A stretch of 64,000 nt of DNA from an uncultured Anaeromyxobacter sp. (lineage in GTDB: Bacteria > Myxococcota > Myxococcia > Myxococcales > Anaeromyxobacteraceae), in NCBI GenBank assembly GCA_903855945.1, contig CAIOAK010000179.1, forward strand, positions 1-64,000. Reading direction: 5' to 3'. Shown piece by piece: positions 6,831-39,846 of this stretch. Numbering within the stretch: position 1 is the first letter of the stretch; each line of letters begins with the position of its first letter. Position numbers and translations under genes: made by a program. Below the pieces are notes generated by a model that ran no database searches, was not told the origin of the DNA, and saw nothing but the letters and a program-made list of their open reading frames with translations.

Positions 6831-9602
6831 TCAACCCAGCGCCTCTTCGACGAGTGCCTGCTGGACGAGCTTGTGGCGCGTCGCCGAGCCGGACGCCGGG
6901 CTCGGACTGGGCGGGCGGGCCACCACGGACGACCGGGCGTCGAACCCGCGCACCGCCTCGCCGAGCGCGTCGCGGATGAAGTGCCAGGCCCCCATGTTTC
7001 GAGGCTCCTCCTGGACCCAGACCACCGAGGCGGAGGCCGGGTACGGGGCGAGCGCCGCCTGCAACTCGGCCACCCGCAGCGGGTAGAGCTGCTCCACCCG
7101 CACGATGGCCACGTCGAGCCGCTTGCGCGCGTTGCGCTCCCCCACGAGATCGTAGAAGACCTTGCCGGAGCAGAGGATCACGCGCTTCACCGCCGACGGG
7201 TCGGTCAAGCCCTCGTCGGGCAGGACGGGGTGGAAGGAGCCCCCGGTGAGCTCCCCGATGGGGGAGACCGCGGCCTGGTTCCGGAGCAGGCTCTTCGGCG
7301 ACATCACCACCATGGGCTTGCGGAACGGGGAGAGGACCTGCCCGCGCAGCGCGTGGAAGATCTGCGCCGGCGTGGTGAGGTTCATCACCCGCCAGTTGTC
7401 CTCCACGGAGAGTTCCAGGAAGCGTTCCAGCCGGGCGCTGGAGTGCTCGGGCCCCTGCCCCTCCATCCCGTGGGGGAGCAGCATCACGAGGCCGGAGAGA
7501 CGGTTCCACTTCACCTCGGAGGAGGAGAGGAACTGGTCGATGAGCACCTGGGCCCCGTTCACGAAGTCGCCGAACTGGGCCTCCCAGATGGTGAGCGACT
7601 CGGGCTGCTCGAGGCTGTAGCCGTACTCGAACCCGAGCGCCGCCGCCTCGGAGAGCGCGCTGTCGTAGATCGAGACCTTCCCCTGCCCCTCCCGGAGGTT
7701 TCCGAGGGGCATGTAGGGGGCGCCGTTCCGGTGGTCGTGGATGACGGCGTGCCGGTGGCTGAAGGTGCCGCGCTGGACGTCCTGCCCCACCAGCCGGACG
7801 CGACGCCCGTCCCAGGCGATCGAACCGTAGGCGAGCACCTCGGCGAAGCCCCAGTCGAGCGGGCGCTTGCCACGCGCCATCTCGGCGCGGGCCTCGAAGA
7901 GCTTGGCGATCTTGGGATTGGGCTCGAAGCCGGCCGGGATCTCGGACAGGTGGCGGGCCACCTGGGCGAGCCGATCGTCGGGAACCGCGGTGACCGCGTC
8001 GTCGCTCGAGAGGAGCGGGCCGCCCCGGTAGCGGCTCCACACGCCCTCGGCCGGCGCCGGGACCGGCACCGCCGCGACCGCGGCCGAGGCCTGGTAGGCC
8101 TCCTCGAGCCGGGCCTGGAAGGCGCGGGTGAGGCCCGAGACCTGCTCCTCGGTGGCCACGCCGTCCTTCTGGAGCGACGACGCGTAGGCCCGGGGGAACG
8201 GGGTCTTCGCGGCGATGGCCCGGTACATCACCGGCTGCGTGAAGGTGGGCTCGTCCCCCTCGTTGTGGCCGAACTTGCGGTAGCCCCAGACGTCGAGGAC
8301 CACGTCCCGGTGCCAGCGCTGCCGGAAGTCGGCGGCCAGCAGCACCGCCTGGGCCACCGCCTCCATGTCCTCGCCGTTCACGTGGAGGACGGGGATGTCG
8401 AGCATGAGCGCCACGTCGGTGGCGTAGGTGGTGGAGCGCGAGTCGCGCGGGGAGGTGGTGAAGCCGATCTGGTTGTTCACCACCACGTGGATGGTGCCTC
8501 CGCAGTAATTGGCGGGGAGGCCGGACATGTTGAAGGTCTCGGCCACGATCCCCTGCCCCGCGAAGGCAGCGTCGCCGTGGATGAGAACCGGGATGGATCG
8601 CTGCCCCTCTGCGTCGCTGAAGCGGTCCTGCTTGGCGCGCACGCGCCCCTGCACGACCGGGTCGATCCACTCCAGGTGGCTGGGGTTGAAGGCCAGCGAG
8701 AGGCGGAGCCCGCCGTCGGGGGTGTCGCGGGTGCTCGTGTAGCCCAGGTGGTACTTCACGTCGCCGCCGGCCGCGCCGTTGATGATGGCCTGGTCGCGGA
8801 ACTCGGCGAAGATGCTCTGCAGCGGCTTTCCGAGGACGTTGGCGAGCACGTTGAGACGTCCGCGGTGGGCCATGCCGATGACCACGTTGCGGACGCCGTA
8901 GCCGATGGCCCGATCGACGAGCAGCTCGAGGAGCGGGACCAGGACCTCCGACCCCTCCAGCGAGAAGCGCTTCGCGCCCAGGAAGCGCGTCCCCAGGAAC
9001 TGCTCGAACATCCCGGCCTGGAGGAGCTTCTCGGCCAGCCGTAGCTTCACCTCGGGTGCGAGGGTGAGCCGGTTGCGCGTGCGCTCCATGCGCTGCTCCA
9101 GCCAGCCGCGCAGCTCCCGGTCGTGGATGTGGCCGAGCTGGATCCCGAGCGTCCGGCCGTAGGTCTCCTGGAGGCGGGCCACCCGCTCGCGAAGCGCCTC
9201 CACCCGCCCCCCGTCGTCCCCCACCGGGCGGTCGAGGTCGTCCTCGGTGAGGCCGAACTCCGACAGCTCGAGACGCTCGGCCCGGCGCGGCTCCAGGCCC
9301 AGCGGATCGAGGTCGGCCTGCATGTGACCGAAGGTCCGCCAGGCCCGGGTGAGCCGATCCACCCGGAGGCGGAAGGCCTCCCGGTCGTCGGCCGGTCCTG
9401 CGCTCGCTTCACTTACGGTTCGTGCAGGCCAGGCGGTGGGCGCGGGCGCCGCGCCGGGCGCGGGAGGGAGCGACGCGAAGTAGGTGCGCCATCCCTCGTC
9501 CACCGAGGCGGGGTCCTCCCGCCAGGCGAAGTAGAGATCCTCCACGAACCCGAGGTTGGATGCGCTCGGGGCCGGCGTGGCGGCTTCGTTGGCGTCGGAC
9601 AT
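6831..9602 (-). CDS. sucA: 2-oxoglutarate dehydrogenase E1 component
   Basis: A 923-residue thiamine-diphosphate-dependent E1 subunit, close to the usual 900-950 residues. Visible landmarks are the N-terminal [20 protein letters not shown] block (E2-binding segment), [14 protein letters not shown] and [14 protein letters not shown] of the ThDP-binding core, the FGHNEGDEP segment, and a C-terminal transketolase-like domain ending with an EEPRNMGAW motif. It decarboxylates 2-oxoglutarate and reductively succinylates the E2 lipoyl group. Starts with ATG at 9600-9602. An intact sucAB pair implies a complete oxidative TCA step in this organism, even though other genes suggest low-oxygen life. Confidence 0.96.
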
Positions 9603-36283: not shown

Positions 36284-36313
36284 TTGACCCCGCGACCCCG
36301 CGACCTCTATCCT
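36284..36313 (+). promoter_or_regulatory. Candidate promoter for the Ser/Thr kinase gene
   Basis: TTGACC (36284-36289) and TATCCT (36308-36313) are separated by 18 bases. The start site would fall at about 36320-36321, that is, on the GTG start codon, implying a leaderless transcript. The spacer contains two tandem copies of CCCCGCGA. Predicted from sequence only. Confidence 0.4.
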
Positions 36314-36320
36314 TTTCCCC

Positions 36321-37457
36321 GTGCCCCCGCGGTGTGTCGGCCCTTGGGAAATTCTCACGGTCATCGGCCGAGGGGGGGTGGGGACTGTCTACCGCGCCCG
36401 CCACCTGCTCGACGGCATGCCCGCCGCGGTGAAGCTCCTGGGACCGGCCCCGGCGGTGGACGCCACGTCGGCCCGGCGGCTCGCGCGGGAGTTCGAGGTC
36501 CTCCGCGCGCTGGTGCACCCCAACATCGTCCGGGTCTTCGACGCCGGGCAGGTGGAGGGCTACTCATGGCTCGCGATGGAGCTGGTCGAGGGGCTCGACC
36601 TCCGGACGTACCTCGCTCCCCTGGTGGGCAGCCCCATCCTGGAGCTGCCATCCTTCCTCGCCTCCTCCCCGCCGGAGGGGGCGGAGGAGCCGGTCTTCGA
36701 CATGGCGGCCTGGCTGCTCGAGCCGGAGACGCACGGGGATGCCGCGGCCCTCGTGTCCCGCCCCCCCCGCTCCGGGGTCGAGGACATCCGGGCCTTCGCC
36801 GACCTGATGGACGAGCCGGAGACGAACGACCGATCCGGCTCCTGGGCCCGGACGGCCGATCCGCCCCGCGCGGTCGATCTGGCGGGCGGGGAGGAGCCGG
36901 AGCCCGAGGTCCCGTCGGTGGCCCTGACGCGCCTGCTCAACCGCCCGGAGCGGATGGCCCGGCTCCGCGACGTGCTCGGGCAGGTGATCGACGCGCTCGA
37001 CTTCGTGCACGGCAAGGGGTTCATCCATCGCGATCTGAAGCCCTCCAACATCATGGTGGACGACACCCGGCGCGTCCGGATCATGGATTTCGGCCTCGTG
37101 AAGCAGCTCTCCGATGCGAGCGCGCTCACCCTCTCGGGACGCGTGGTCGGCACCTACCGGTACATGGCACCGGAGCAGGCTTCCGGGCGCGAGGTGGACC
37201 ACCGCTCCGATCTCTGGAGTCTCGGGGTGATCCTCTACGAGCTCCTCGTGGGTCGTCCGCCCTTCCCCTCCTCCGTGCCCTCCGAACTCTGGAGGGAGAT
37301 CACGTCGGTGGAGCCTCCGGCGATCCGGGAGATGAACCCCGCAGCCGACGTCGCCCTTGCGGCCGCAGCCGAGCGGCTGCTCCGGAAGGACCCCGCAGAC
37401 CGCATCCAGACCGCCGCCGAGTTGCGGTCCGCCATCGTGGCGCCCGCAGAGGCCTGA
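36321..37457 (+). CDS. Ser/Thr protein kinase with a large insertion between lobes
   Basis: A 378-residue eukaryotic-like kinase without membrane helix or sensor domain. It has the Gly loop IGRGGVGTVY, the catalytic lysine in AAVKLLG, the hinge MELVEGLDL, the catalytic loop HRDLKPSN near 236-243, DFG in IMDFGLVK, APE as MAPEQ, and DLWSLGVIL. Between the hinge (about 100) and the segment leading into the catalytic loop (about 215) lie about 115 acidic, Pro-rich residues not found in ordinary PknB-type kinases. It should phosphorylate Ser/Thr in cytoplasmic targets. The GTG start has no Shine-Dalgarno and seems to coincide with the predicted transcription start. It lies directly upstream of an unknown protein and a DnaC-like ATPase on the same strand. 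Confidence 0.88.
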   Translation: MPPRCVGPWEILTVIGRGGVGTVYRARHLLDGMPAAVKLLGPAPAVDATSARRLAREFEVLRALVHPNIVRVFDAGQVEGYSWLAMELVEGLDLRTYLAPLVGSPILELPSFLASSPPEGAEEPVFDMAAWLLEPETHGDAAALVSRPPRSGVEDIRAFADLMDEPETNDRSGSWARTADPPRAVDLAGGEEPEPEVPSVALTRLLNRPERMARLRDVLGQVIDALDFVHGKGFIHRDLKPSNIMVDDTRRVRIMDFGLVKQLSDASALTLSGRVVGTYRYMAPEQASGREVDHRSDLWSLGVILYELLVGRPPFPSSVPSELWREITSVEPPAIREMNPAADVALAAAAERLLRKDPADRIQTAAELRSAIVAPAEA

Positions 37458-37482
37458 CAGATCGGACCGCTAGGCTCCGGAC

Positions 37483-38148
37483 GTGTCGCTCATCCCCGCC
37501 GGGTCCTTCTCCTACACCGCCCTCGTCTCCGAGTTCTTCCTCCAGCTCCGGGGGGCGGGGATCCTGCTCTCCCCGCTCGACCTGGAGCTGGTGGCGGAAT
37601 GGGAGCGCCGGGGCGTCCCGGCGCAGGTGGTGTGCCGCGGGATGCGACGGGGGTGGGACGTGCTCGTCGAGGAGCGCGCGCCGGGCGCGGCCCCTCCCCG
37701 CTCGCTCCGCGCACTCCGCGGCTTCGTCGAGGAGGAATGGCGCGCCTACCGCGAGGGGCGGGTCGGGGACGGCGGCGCCCGGGGTCCCGAGGCCGACGCG
37801 GCGCGCGCCCGCCTGGCCGATGCCCGTGCGCGGCTCGGCGAGGCGGAGGGCGCGGCCGACGGGGAGCGGGCCCTCGGGTACCGGGAGGCTGCGGCGCTCC
37901 TGCCGGAGGAACCCGTGGCGCTCGACGAGCTGGAGCGGGCCTTCTCCCGCGCCGACGACCGGATCCTGCACCGGTGGATCCGGTCGCTCCCCCGGCCGGA
38001 GCGCGCGGCTCTCGGCCCGCGCTGCCGGCTCCTCGCCGGCGAGCGAACGCGCCGCGCGCGACGCTCCTCCTACCGCCACACCCTCCGCACCCACCTCTTC
38101 GAGGCTGCACGGCGGGCGGGGATACTCTGCCTTCGCGGGACCGTGTAG
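37483..38148 (+). CDS. Unrecognised 221-residue protein upstream of a DnaC-like ATPase
   Basis: Not a family I recognise. Two compact helical segments are visible: residues about 10-60 (FFLQLRGAGILLSPLDLELVA and EWERRGVPAQVVCRGMRRGW), which resemble a helix-turn-helix-like unit, and about 130-221, which is basic and ends in RSSYRHTLRTHLFEAARRAG. The middle is a charged Glu/Arg/Ala linker. No signal peptide or membrane segment. The GTG start (37483) lies 25 bases after the kinase stop. Its place 13 bases ahead of a DnaC/IstB-like helicase-loader-type ATPase suggests a replication- or DNA-repair-linked partner, by analogy with DnaD/DnaC-type gene pairs; that is inference. Confidence 0.6.
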   Translation: MSLIPAGSFSYTALVSEFFLQLRGAGILLSPLDLELVAEWERRGVPAQVVCRGMRRGWDVLVEERAPGAAPPRSLRALRGFVEEEWRAYREGRVGDGGARGPEADAARARLADARARLGEAEGAADGERALGYREAAALLPEEPVALDELERAFSRADDRILHRWIRSLPRPERAALGPRCRLLAGERTRRARRSSYRHTLRTHLFEAARRAGILCLRGTV

Positions 38149-38161
38149 ACTCCGCCGCCCG

Positions 38162-39043
38162 ATGGCCGAAAAACCCGACAGCAGCGCCGCCTGCAAGGAG
38201 TGCGGCGGGGCGGGCTACGTGGTCGAGCAGGTGGTCGGCTCCCCGGCCCGCGCGCGGCGATGCGCCTGCCAGGCCACCTGCCCCCGCTGCGGCGGGAGCG
38301 GCTACTTCATGGTGACCTCGGGGCCGGGGCGGGTCGCCCAGGCCTGCGATTGCCGCCACCTCGACCAGCGCATCGCCACCTTCAACGCGGCCGCCATCCC
38401 GGCCGCCGTCGCCCGGGCCTCCTTCGAGAACTTCCGGCCCTGGTCCCAGAGCCAGTCGAAGGCCCGGGCCGCCTGCGAGAACTTCGCCCACCAGGTCCGG
38501 TCCGACCGGGCCAGCCGGGGAGTGCTGCTGCACGGGAAGCCGGGCTGCGGGAAGACCCATCTCCTGGCCGCGTCGCTGCGCTGGCTGGCGCTCGAGAAGG
38601 GTGTCTCCTGCCGCTACGTCGAGTTCATGCTGCTCCTCTCGGACATCCGCGCGGGGTTCGGCTCGAACCGCGGCCACATGGAGATCCTGGGGCCGCTCGC
38701 GAACGTCCCGGTGCTCGCCATCGACGAGCTGGGCAAGGAGCGGGGCACCGAGTGGGAGCGGTCGATGCTCGACGAGCTCATCAGCCGCCGCTACAACGCC
38801 GGCCTCACCACCATCTTCGCCACCAATTACCCGCGCGACCCGCAGCCGGTCCCGGTGCCGGTGGGCGGCAAGCACCACACCGCGTCGAAGGAGTTCCAGC
38901 GCGACGCCGAGGTGCTCAGCCTGGAGGAGCGGGTCGGCCAGCGCATCTACTCCCGCCTGAACGAGATGTGCGACTTCGTCCAGCTCGAGGGTCCCGACTA
39001 CCGCAAGGACGCCGAGCCGGGCCGCGGGTCCTTCTGGAGGTAG
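38162..39043 (+). CDS. DnaC/IstB-like AAA+ ATPase with DnaJ-type zinc motifs
   Basis: A 293-residue protein. Residues 1-70 hold two CxxCGGxG motifs (CKECGGAG, CPRCGGSG) interleaved with two CxC motifs (CAC, CDC), the cysteine pattern of the DnaJ zinc-finger region. Residues about 95-290 are an AAA+ ATPase of the helicase-loader type: Walker A HGKPGCGKTHL near 121, Walker B VLAIDELGKE, sensor I IFATNYP, and an arginine-rich VGQRIYSRL segment. Such ATPases load DnaB or assist transposases. No transposase and no inverted repeats are nearby, so a chromosomal role is more likely. Overlapping no other gene, it follows the unknown 221-residue gene by 13 bases. Confidence 0.85.
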   Translation: MAEKPDSSAACKECGGAGYVVEQVVGSPARARRCACQATCPRCGGSGYFMVTSGPGRVAQACDCRHLDQRIATFNAAAIPAAVARASFENFRPWSQSQSKARAACENFAHQVRSDRASRGVLLHGKPGCGKTHLLAASLRWLALEKGVSCRYVEFMLLLSDIRAGFGSNRGHMEILGPLANVPVLAIDELGKERGTEWERSMLDELISRRYNAGLTTIFATNYPRDPQPVPVPVGGKHHTASKEFQRDAEVLSLEERVGQRIYSRLNEMCDFVQLEGPDYRKDAEPGRGSFWR

Positions 39044-39051
39044 GGGCGCGC

Positions 39052-39846
39052 ATGGCCGGATTCGAGGGACGGATCGCGCTGGTCACGGGCGCCGGGTCGG
39101 GCATCGGCCGGGCGGCGGCGCTGCGGCTGGCGCGGGACGGGGCGATCGTCGTCGCGACCGACGTGCGGGGGGACGCGGCGCGGGAGACCGCCCTGCTCGC
39201 AGGGTCCGGTGCGGTCGCGCTGGAGCTGGACGTCCGCGATCCCGCGTCGTGGGAGCGCGTCCTCGCGTCGCTGCCGGCGGCGCCGCTGGGCGTGCTGGTG
39301 AACGGTGCGGGCGTGACCGGCCTCGGGGCGGGGGCGGGGGCGGCGGCGCAGGACCCGGAGACGCTGTCGCTCGAGACGCTCCGGGCCGTACTGGCCGTGA
39401 ACCTCGAGGGGGTGGTGCTGGGATGCCGGTACGCGATCCGCGCCATGCGCGAGCGGGGCGGCAGCATCGTCAACGTCTCCTCCCGGGCCGGGTCGATCGG
39501 GGTTCCGGGGGCGGTCGCCTACGGGGCGAGCAAGGCCGCGGTGGGGAGCGTCACCCGCTCGGTCGCGCTCCACTGCGCCGGAGCCGGCCTCGCGGTGCGG
39601 TGCAACGCGGTGGTTCCCGGCGCCATCGACACGCCGATGTGGGGGGCGCTCCTGGGGGACGGGCCGGACCGGGCGGAGCGGGCCGCGCGGGTGGGCGCGG
39701 AGGTGCCCCTCGGGAGGATGGGGACCGCCGAAGAGGTGGCCGAGGCCATCGCATGGCTGGCGTCGGACGGCGCGGCCTACGTCACCGGGACGGAGATCGT
39801 GGTGGATGGAGGAATGGCGGCGGGACCGGTGGCGCGGCGGGGGTGA
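39052..39846 (+). CDS. Short-chain dehydrogenase/reductase (classical SDR)
   Basis: A 264-residue classical SDR. Cofactor loop TGAGSGIGRA, the NGAGVT (NNAG) motif, the catalytic serine in NVSSRAG and YGASK (YxxxK) are intact, and the C-terminal GTEIVVDGGMA is typical of the FabG-like group. The ATDV after strand 2 (Asp rather than Arg) suggests NAD+ preference. The substrate is unknown. The ATG follows the DnaC-like stop by 8 bases, so it may be cotranscribed, although no functional link is evident. Confidence 0.9.
   Translation: MAGFEGRIALVTGAGSGIGRAAALRLARDGAIVVATDVRGDAARETALLAGSGAVALELDVRDPASWERVLASLPAAPLGVLVNGAGVTGLGAGAGAAAQDPETLSLETLRAVLAVNLEGVVLGCRYAIRAMRERGGSIVNVSSRAGSIGVPGAVAYGASKAAVGSVTRSVALHCAGAGLAVRCNAVVPGAIDTPMWGALLGDGPDRAERAARVGAEVPLGRMGTAEEVAEAIAWLASDGAAYVTGTEIVVDGGMAAGPVARRG

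Follow-up and report, generated by a model that had tools for sequence, protein, structure and literature searches.

A DnaD-like and DnaC/DnaI-type gene pair, a probable resident helicase-loading pair, is maintained together with dciA in most Myxococcales

The LH-DH module of the replicative helicase DnaB is the docking site of DciA, DnaC and lambda P alike (PMC9912922). Two loaders acting on one helicase would therefore have to compete, alternate or serve different sites. A survey of 1,426 genomes, whose data set includes Myxococcus xanthus, found none carrying both kinds of loader, DciA and dna[CI] (Brezellec et al., PMC5109545). Bacillus subtilis DnaI interacts with the helicase through its N-terminal zinc-binding domain (PMC13326638). 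In Escherichia coli, dnaT lies directly upstream of dnaC, and phages show the same gene order, with a DnaD-like gene followed by a DnaC-like gene.

Here, we describe a locus of an uncultured Anaeromyxobacter sp. in which a gene for a DnaC/DnaI-type ATPase directly follows that of a small partner protein, and we compare this pair with the systems above across the Myxococcales, an order in which dciA is also widespread.

The three-gene locus

The locus lies on contig C179 of a 4.07 Mb assembly that is 99% complete. Coordinates are those of the window, that is, the whole stretch of 64,000 nucleotides that was analysed. The features are as follows.

36284-36313, + strand: sigma-70-like promoter match TTGACC-18-TATCCT (consensus scan 9/12, shuffles mean 0.0), not by itself evidence of function
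36321-37457, + strand: cytosolic Ser/Thr protein kinase; GTG start, 378 aa; Pfam PF00069 at 6.4e-50, catalytic motifs intact
36615-36956, + strand: acidic insert of the kinase, residues 99-212, between hinge and helix E; 22 D/E vs 9 K/R
37483-38148, + strand: partner protein; GTG start, 221 aa; putative DnaD-like N-terminal domain and helical C-terminal half
37513-37752, + strand: DnaD/DnaB_2-like four-helix domain, residues 11-90 of the partner, as suggested by PHROG, hhalign and viral Foldseek
38162-39043, + strand: DnaI/DnaC-type AAA+ ATPase, candidate replicative-helicase loader; ATG start, 293 aa
38192-38353, + strand: N-terminal double zinc-ribbon-like region of the ATPase, residues 11-64, CxxCxGxG...CxC twice, judged from the ligand pattern
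38417-39007, + strand: AAA+ domain; Walker A GKPGCGKT, Walker B AIDE, sensor 1 ATN, Arg finger RVGxRIYSR

The three genes are co-directional and, as the initial annotation had stated, are separated by 25 nt (kinase to partner) and 13 nt (partner to ATPase). The promoter-like match ends 7 nt before the GTG of the kinase, whose transcript may be almost leaderless, and no terminator-like site occurs on the + strand within the locus. The single promoter-like site upstream and the lack of an internal terminator-like site fit one transcription unit, being compatible with it rather than proof of it. The grouping of these genes is not a chance observation, because kinase, partner and ATPase genes are all conserved in other genomes. 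The public relatives belong to Anaeromyxobacter and to Anaeromyxobacteraceae MAGs, with ATPase identities of at best 86-88%.

The kinase domain is matched by the Pkinase profile in two stretches, interrupted by an insert of 114 residues (about 115 in the initial annotation). The motifs GxGxxG, VK, HRD, DFG and APE are intact. No PASTA or other additional domain was matched, and with the PASTA kinase (PknB/Stk1) equivalog the protein reaches 232 of the 450 bits required, over the kinase domain only.

Families are designated below by arbitrary labels, f1 to f12, of which only f1 is named (Anaeromyxobacteraceae, from record titles). In f1, f7 and f9, the kinase, partner and ATPase genes are followed by a convergent lysC-like gene. 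ABC-transporter genes come next in the window, in f7 and in f9, and in f1 the kinase gene is divergent from a uppS-like gene; the names uppS, lysC and ABC transporter were taken from the sequence starts of neighbouring gene calls, without profile search. Downstream of the ATPase, a short-chain dehydrogenase-like gene (39053-39846) begins 9 nt past the stop codon. A similar gene is found 3' of the ATPase in locus L003 and is seemingly missing in L002, so that the gene may have been inserted recently between those of the ATPase and lysC. Finally, the frame of the ATPase is open for 919 codons backwards through both upstream genes (36284-39043 of the window), which reflects the high GC content and not a fusion protein.

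The AAA+ protein and its partner

The ATPase matches Pfam PF01695 with 40 bits (cut-off 24.1), and its orthologues in f2 and f6 do so with 40-49 bits. Among NCBIfam models, PRK08116 gives 105 bits, DnaI 67.8, IstB (IS21) 58 and DnaC 52. All four scores are under the curated cut-offs (228 bits for DnaI, 200 for IstB and 357 for DnaC); the DnaC of phage EJ-1 likewise fails the DnaC and DnaI equivalog cut-offs. Sequence matches in the PDB are strongest with the Aquifex-type DnaC (3ecc, 1.8e-18) and the DnaC of 6qel (8.9e-14), followed by DnaI-type proteins (1e-13 to 3e-7), and reach only 0.003 with the IstB of IS5376. All AAA+ motifs align with those of E. coli DnaC and of phage loaders. Relatives in phages are annotated, for instance, as DnaC-like helicase loader, and none among the matches listed exceeds 34% identity; relatives on viral contigs are 25-37% identical, and the closest viral and plasmid relatives together about 24-37%. 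With viral relatives so distant, no close phage source for the ATPase is apparent. By score, motifs and phage relatives, the sequence of the ATPase places it with the DnaC/DnaI type and not with IstB; it was a grouping with the IstB of a known transposon family that the initial annotation had named as refuting its own reading. That annotation's description of a DnaC/IstB-type AAA+ ATPase with a DnaJ-like zinc region is borne out by the PF01695 score above cut-off and by the two CxxCxGxG...CxC repeats.

In the zinc region, the second ribbon is nearly invariant across the order and the first is missing in some f6 members. Since the zinc domain of DnaI binds the helicase (PMC13326638), the zinc region of the ATPase may, by its position, be helicase-binding too. 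Genome G163 encodes a second, divergent PF01695-type ATPase (L098:7854-9068) downstream of a ParA-like gene; this ATPase does not belong to the resident clade described below and is possibly carried by a mobile element.

The 221-aa partner, which the initial annotation could not place, has no Pfam or NCBIfam match, and neither PF07261 nor any other Pfam family was matched by its homologues (0 of 39 members). PHROG 7498, annotated as "DnaD-like helicase loader", matches 30 of these 39 homologues (lowest E-value 3.1e-5). When divergent partners were scanned singly, nine out of ten matched PHROG 7498 or 16826, both DnaD-like, over residues of about 11-90, and the matches always fell on the C-terminal part of the profile. 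The profile of the N-terminal domain was also compared by hhalign with an alignment of 13 DnaD domains, made up of phage proteins and of B. subtilis DnaD (whose sequence was checked against PDB 8ojj, the 8ojj residue being adopted at the single difference). The comparison gave P 1e-4, a value reached by none of 500 column-shuffled controls, the nearest of which gave 1.2e-4.

The predicted structure of the partner has a pLDDT of 84 for the whole protein; the N-terminal domain alone reaches 86, with a pTM of 0.78 and predicted helices at residues 11-23, 31-43, 47-63 and 75-90. In a Foldseek search of viral models, the best match bears the name "Replication initiation and membrane attachment" (E 0.08, probability 0.97), which recurs at rank 4 (E 0.58). 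Foldseek against the PDB, with the whole partner or with the N-terminal domain, gave no significant match, solved DnaD domains included. A tblastn search of phages with a partner homologue gave no match, and the partner-domain HMM gave no significant match among the ORFs of 80 phage loader loci. The alignment of the partners is without a conserved stretch, and four homologues (L076, L077, L078 and L106) consist of the DnaD-like domain alone, about 100 aa long. The N-terminal winged-helix oligomerisation domain of DnaD is absent from the partner, in which the DnaD-like domain begins at residue 11. Taken together, the profile matches and the viral fold matches make it probable that the N-terminal domain is DnaD/DnaB_2-like, an assignment which Pfam and the PDB fold searches do not confirm and which is supported less strongly than the ATPase family, the pairing and the inheritance.

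Inheritance of the pair and coexistence with DciA

In a search of the phylum, the ATPase orthologue and the partner were found in the same genomes and were lacking from the same genomes. The pair is missing from f3 and f4 and, beyond Myxococcales, from almost the whole phylum. According to a comparison of two search tables, the two genes are same-strand neighbours in about 131 of 136 genomes; the exceptions include at least three cases at or near contig ends, and genome G110. Direct reading of 39 loci showed the partner gene right before the ATPase gene in every one, with a spacing of -23 to 258 nt (median 15 nt). This adjacency and near-perfect co-occurrence agree with the initial annotation, which depended on the genes being neighbours in related genomes and suggested that the unplaced protein may be the DNA-binding partner.

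The gene tree groups 38 ATPase orthologues in one clade (100/99), separate from the phage and E. coli loaders, and within it the members of f1, f2, f6, f8 and f10 each group together. On this sequence phylogeny, the pair is inherited vertically across Myxococcales. It is monophyletic, vertical and conserved in context, which makes it resident in the sense of Brezellec et al. (PMC5109545).

PF05258 was searched for because DciA is the ancestral loader. The genome of the window has a dciA gene (34 bits, cut-off 24; 79 bits with an order-specific model), located elsewhere, on contig C20 of G000. DciA (PF05258) was found in 126 of 145 Myxococcales genomes. The pair and dciA occur together in about 123 of the 145, with DciA above the Pfam cut-off in about 121 of these. 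The expectation that dciA is lost where dna[CI] is resident does not hold in Myxococcales. Only in f5, in f9 and in scattered, mostly fragmented assemblies was dciA not found; in f5 and f9, neither Pfam nor the order-specific model gave a convincing match, the complete single-contig genome G161 included. In f8, the DciA match is mostly weak (20-28 bits for three of the four genomes with a match), and f3 and f4 have DciA without the pair. Hence, three states exist within the order: dciA only (f3, f4), both systems (f1, f2, f6, f7 and, weakly, f8) and the pair only (f5, f9). Each of the ten f2 genomes having the orthologue carries dciA directly downstream of the ATPase gene and in the same orientation. 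At one such locus (L085), the stop codon of the ATPase ends at 8918 and the ATG of dciA is at 8921; read from an overlapping GTG at 8918, the protein scores 54.6 bits with Pfam DciA. No description of dciA and dna[CI] coexisting in Myxococcales was found in the literature searched, mainly open-access papers. The component parts are of known kinds; their combination and the order-wide coexistence with DciA appear to be undescribed in the literature accessible to us.

The genome of the window has one replicative DnaB, and a single strong replicative match was obtained in 23 of the 24 genomes checked. Genome G012 (Anaeromyxobacteraceae) carries two full-length replicative DnaB genes (L232, L235). 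The position of the docking helix that bears the serine/glycine code (PMC9912922) is occupied by other residues in 25 Myxococcota DnaB proteins. The Trp of this docking helix of DnaB, which is the helix that binds the loader, appears to have given way to other residues in those f6, f7, f8 and f9 genomes that were inspected and is kept in f1 to f4 and in one f5 genome, in a comparison that includes the DnaB genes L220-L225, L227, L228, L231 and L233.

Proposed function and known systems

The ATPase family, the strict pairing, the vertical inheritance, the co-maintenance of dciA and its linkage in one family are established computationally. From sequence and by analogy, partner and ATPase are probably a resident chromosomal helicase-loading pair of Myxococcales, made up of a DnaD-like organiser and a DnaI/DnaC-type AAA+ loader. 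In the mechanism that we infer, DnaB binding, DNA binding, the loading step, its site (origin or fork) and any phospho-control by the kinase are all presumed. By analogy with DnaD/DnaB-DnaI in Firmicutes and DnaT-DnaC in E. coli, the origin or a stalled fork would be marked or opened for loading by the DnaD-like protein, which would then hand on the ATPase. The ATPase would grip the DnaB hexamer with its zinc-bearing N-terminal region, deliver it to single-stranded DNA and depart upon ATP hydrolysis. The pair would thereby serve a cell with one replicative DnaB and, mostly, also with DciA. With DciA found across most Myxococcales, the main loader at the origin is not necessarily the pair. Of the chromosomal helicase-loading or DNA-repair module initially proposed, the loading part is favoured by the pairing and by the DnaC/DnaI scores; repair, as opposed to replication, has no support.

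How the two loaders share the work may be seen in several ways. In one of them, DciA would load DnaB at oriC, and the pair, like DnaT-DnaC acting with PriA in E. coli, would be a restart module that reloads it at stalled forks. The persistence of both systems in about 123 of 145 genomes, the pairing of dnaT with dnaC in E. coli and the single replicative DnaB of the window's genome, which would serve both, make such a division of labour a serious candidate, somewhat short of an even chance; in f5 and f9, however, where neither model detects dciA, the pair would carry the whole task, barring a further loader. An old phage-derived pair could instead be taking over from DciA, with dciA redundant in most lineages and the swap complete in f5 and f9. 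The three states within one order and the divergent DciA of f8 (20-28 bits in three of four genomes matched) are in line with an ongoing replacement. However, co-maintenance is order-wide and long-lasting, and the dciA kept beside the pair in f2 looks like joint use rather than decay, so that replacement appears rather unlikely.

The kinase might also act as a switch of initiation, by phosphorylating the DnaD-like protein or the loader or by signalling through its acidic insert. Its orthologue lies upstream of the pair, on the same strand, in five families (f1, f5, f7, f8 and f9), and the kinases next to the pair in these families share the insert, which varies in length and keeps an EPxT-type core. 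The single promoter-like site of the locus is upstream of the kinase. However, the kinase is apart from the pair in f6 (Myxococcus-type) and f2, and is not needed there; also, no substrate of it is known. We regard such a switch as a doubtful proposal. As a neighbour of the pair, the kinase is of older date but optional, and because it is away from the pair in f6 and f2, kinase control is no property of the module, if possible in some families; the control of the module envisaged in the initial annotation is not supported. Within the insert, two EPxT motifs, LLEPETH and MDEPETN, are kept in several families and are possible phosphorylation or docking sites.

An IstB-type transposition helper or mobile-element remnant shares the PF01695 AAA+ domain with the ATPase, but this identity is rejected as scarcely credible, since DnaC/DnaI models and structures outscore IstB, the gene is single-copy, vertical and order-wide, its neighbours resemble the uppS and lysC housekeeping genes in several families, and its closest viral or plasmid relatives are about 24-37% identical. 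In accordance with the initial annotation, no IstA or other transposase was seen among the neighbouring gene calls looked at, as judged from sequence starts rather than by a dedicated transposase search.

Returning to the helicase-loading pair, we tentatively suggest, as a speculative extension, that in most Myxococcales DciA and the resident DnaD/DnaI-type loader jointly serve a single DnaB, their genes being adjacent in one family and a dedicated kinase regulating them in others. If true, such a two-loader system would break the rule of mutual exclusion between loader types. An order with both loaders, the adjacency in f2 and the f5 and f9 genomes without detectable dciA would form a natural series on exclusion and loader replacement, and Myxococcus xanthus, being genetically tractable, suits testing.

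Compared with known systems, the ATPase shares with IstB, the helper ATPase of IS21, the AAA+ superfamily and PF01695; in contrast to IstB, it scores lower against the IstB model, has no neighbouring transposase that was seen, and is vertical and single-copy. DciA (PF05258), the known ancestral DnaB loader, occurs in the same genomes as the pair and is adjacent to it in f2. However, it is an unrelated protein, and its gene is elsewhere in the window's genome. With DnaT-DnaC of the E. coli primosome, the likeness claimed is that of gene order, the helper gene being directly upstream of that of the AAA+ loader. As for DnaD/DnaB_2 (PF07261) of Firmicutes and phages, the four-helix domain of the partner resembles that of the C-terminal part of DnaD by profile and PHROG and possibly by viral fold, and the partner gene directly precedes the loader gene; unlike in DnaD, the domain is N-terminal, comes without a winged-helix domain or a Pfam match and, in some divergent members, constitutes the whole protein of about 100 aa. 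Finally, the ATPase has the PF01695 core of B. subtilis DnaI and E. coli DnaC with all motifs, carries zinc ligands in its N-terminal region as DnaI does, and is encoded beside a DnaD/DnaT-type gene, resident and vertical throughout an order. It differs from DnaI and DnaC by its double DnaJ-like zinc ribbons at the N-terminus, by an additional stretch that separates sensor 1 from the Arg finger, by scores far under the equivalog cut-offs, and by sharing its genomes with dciA.
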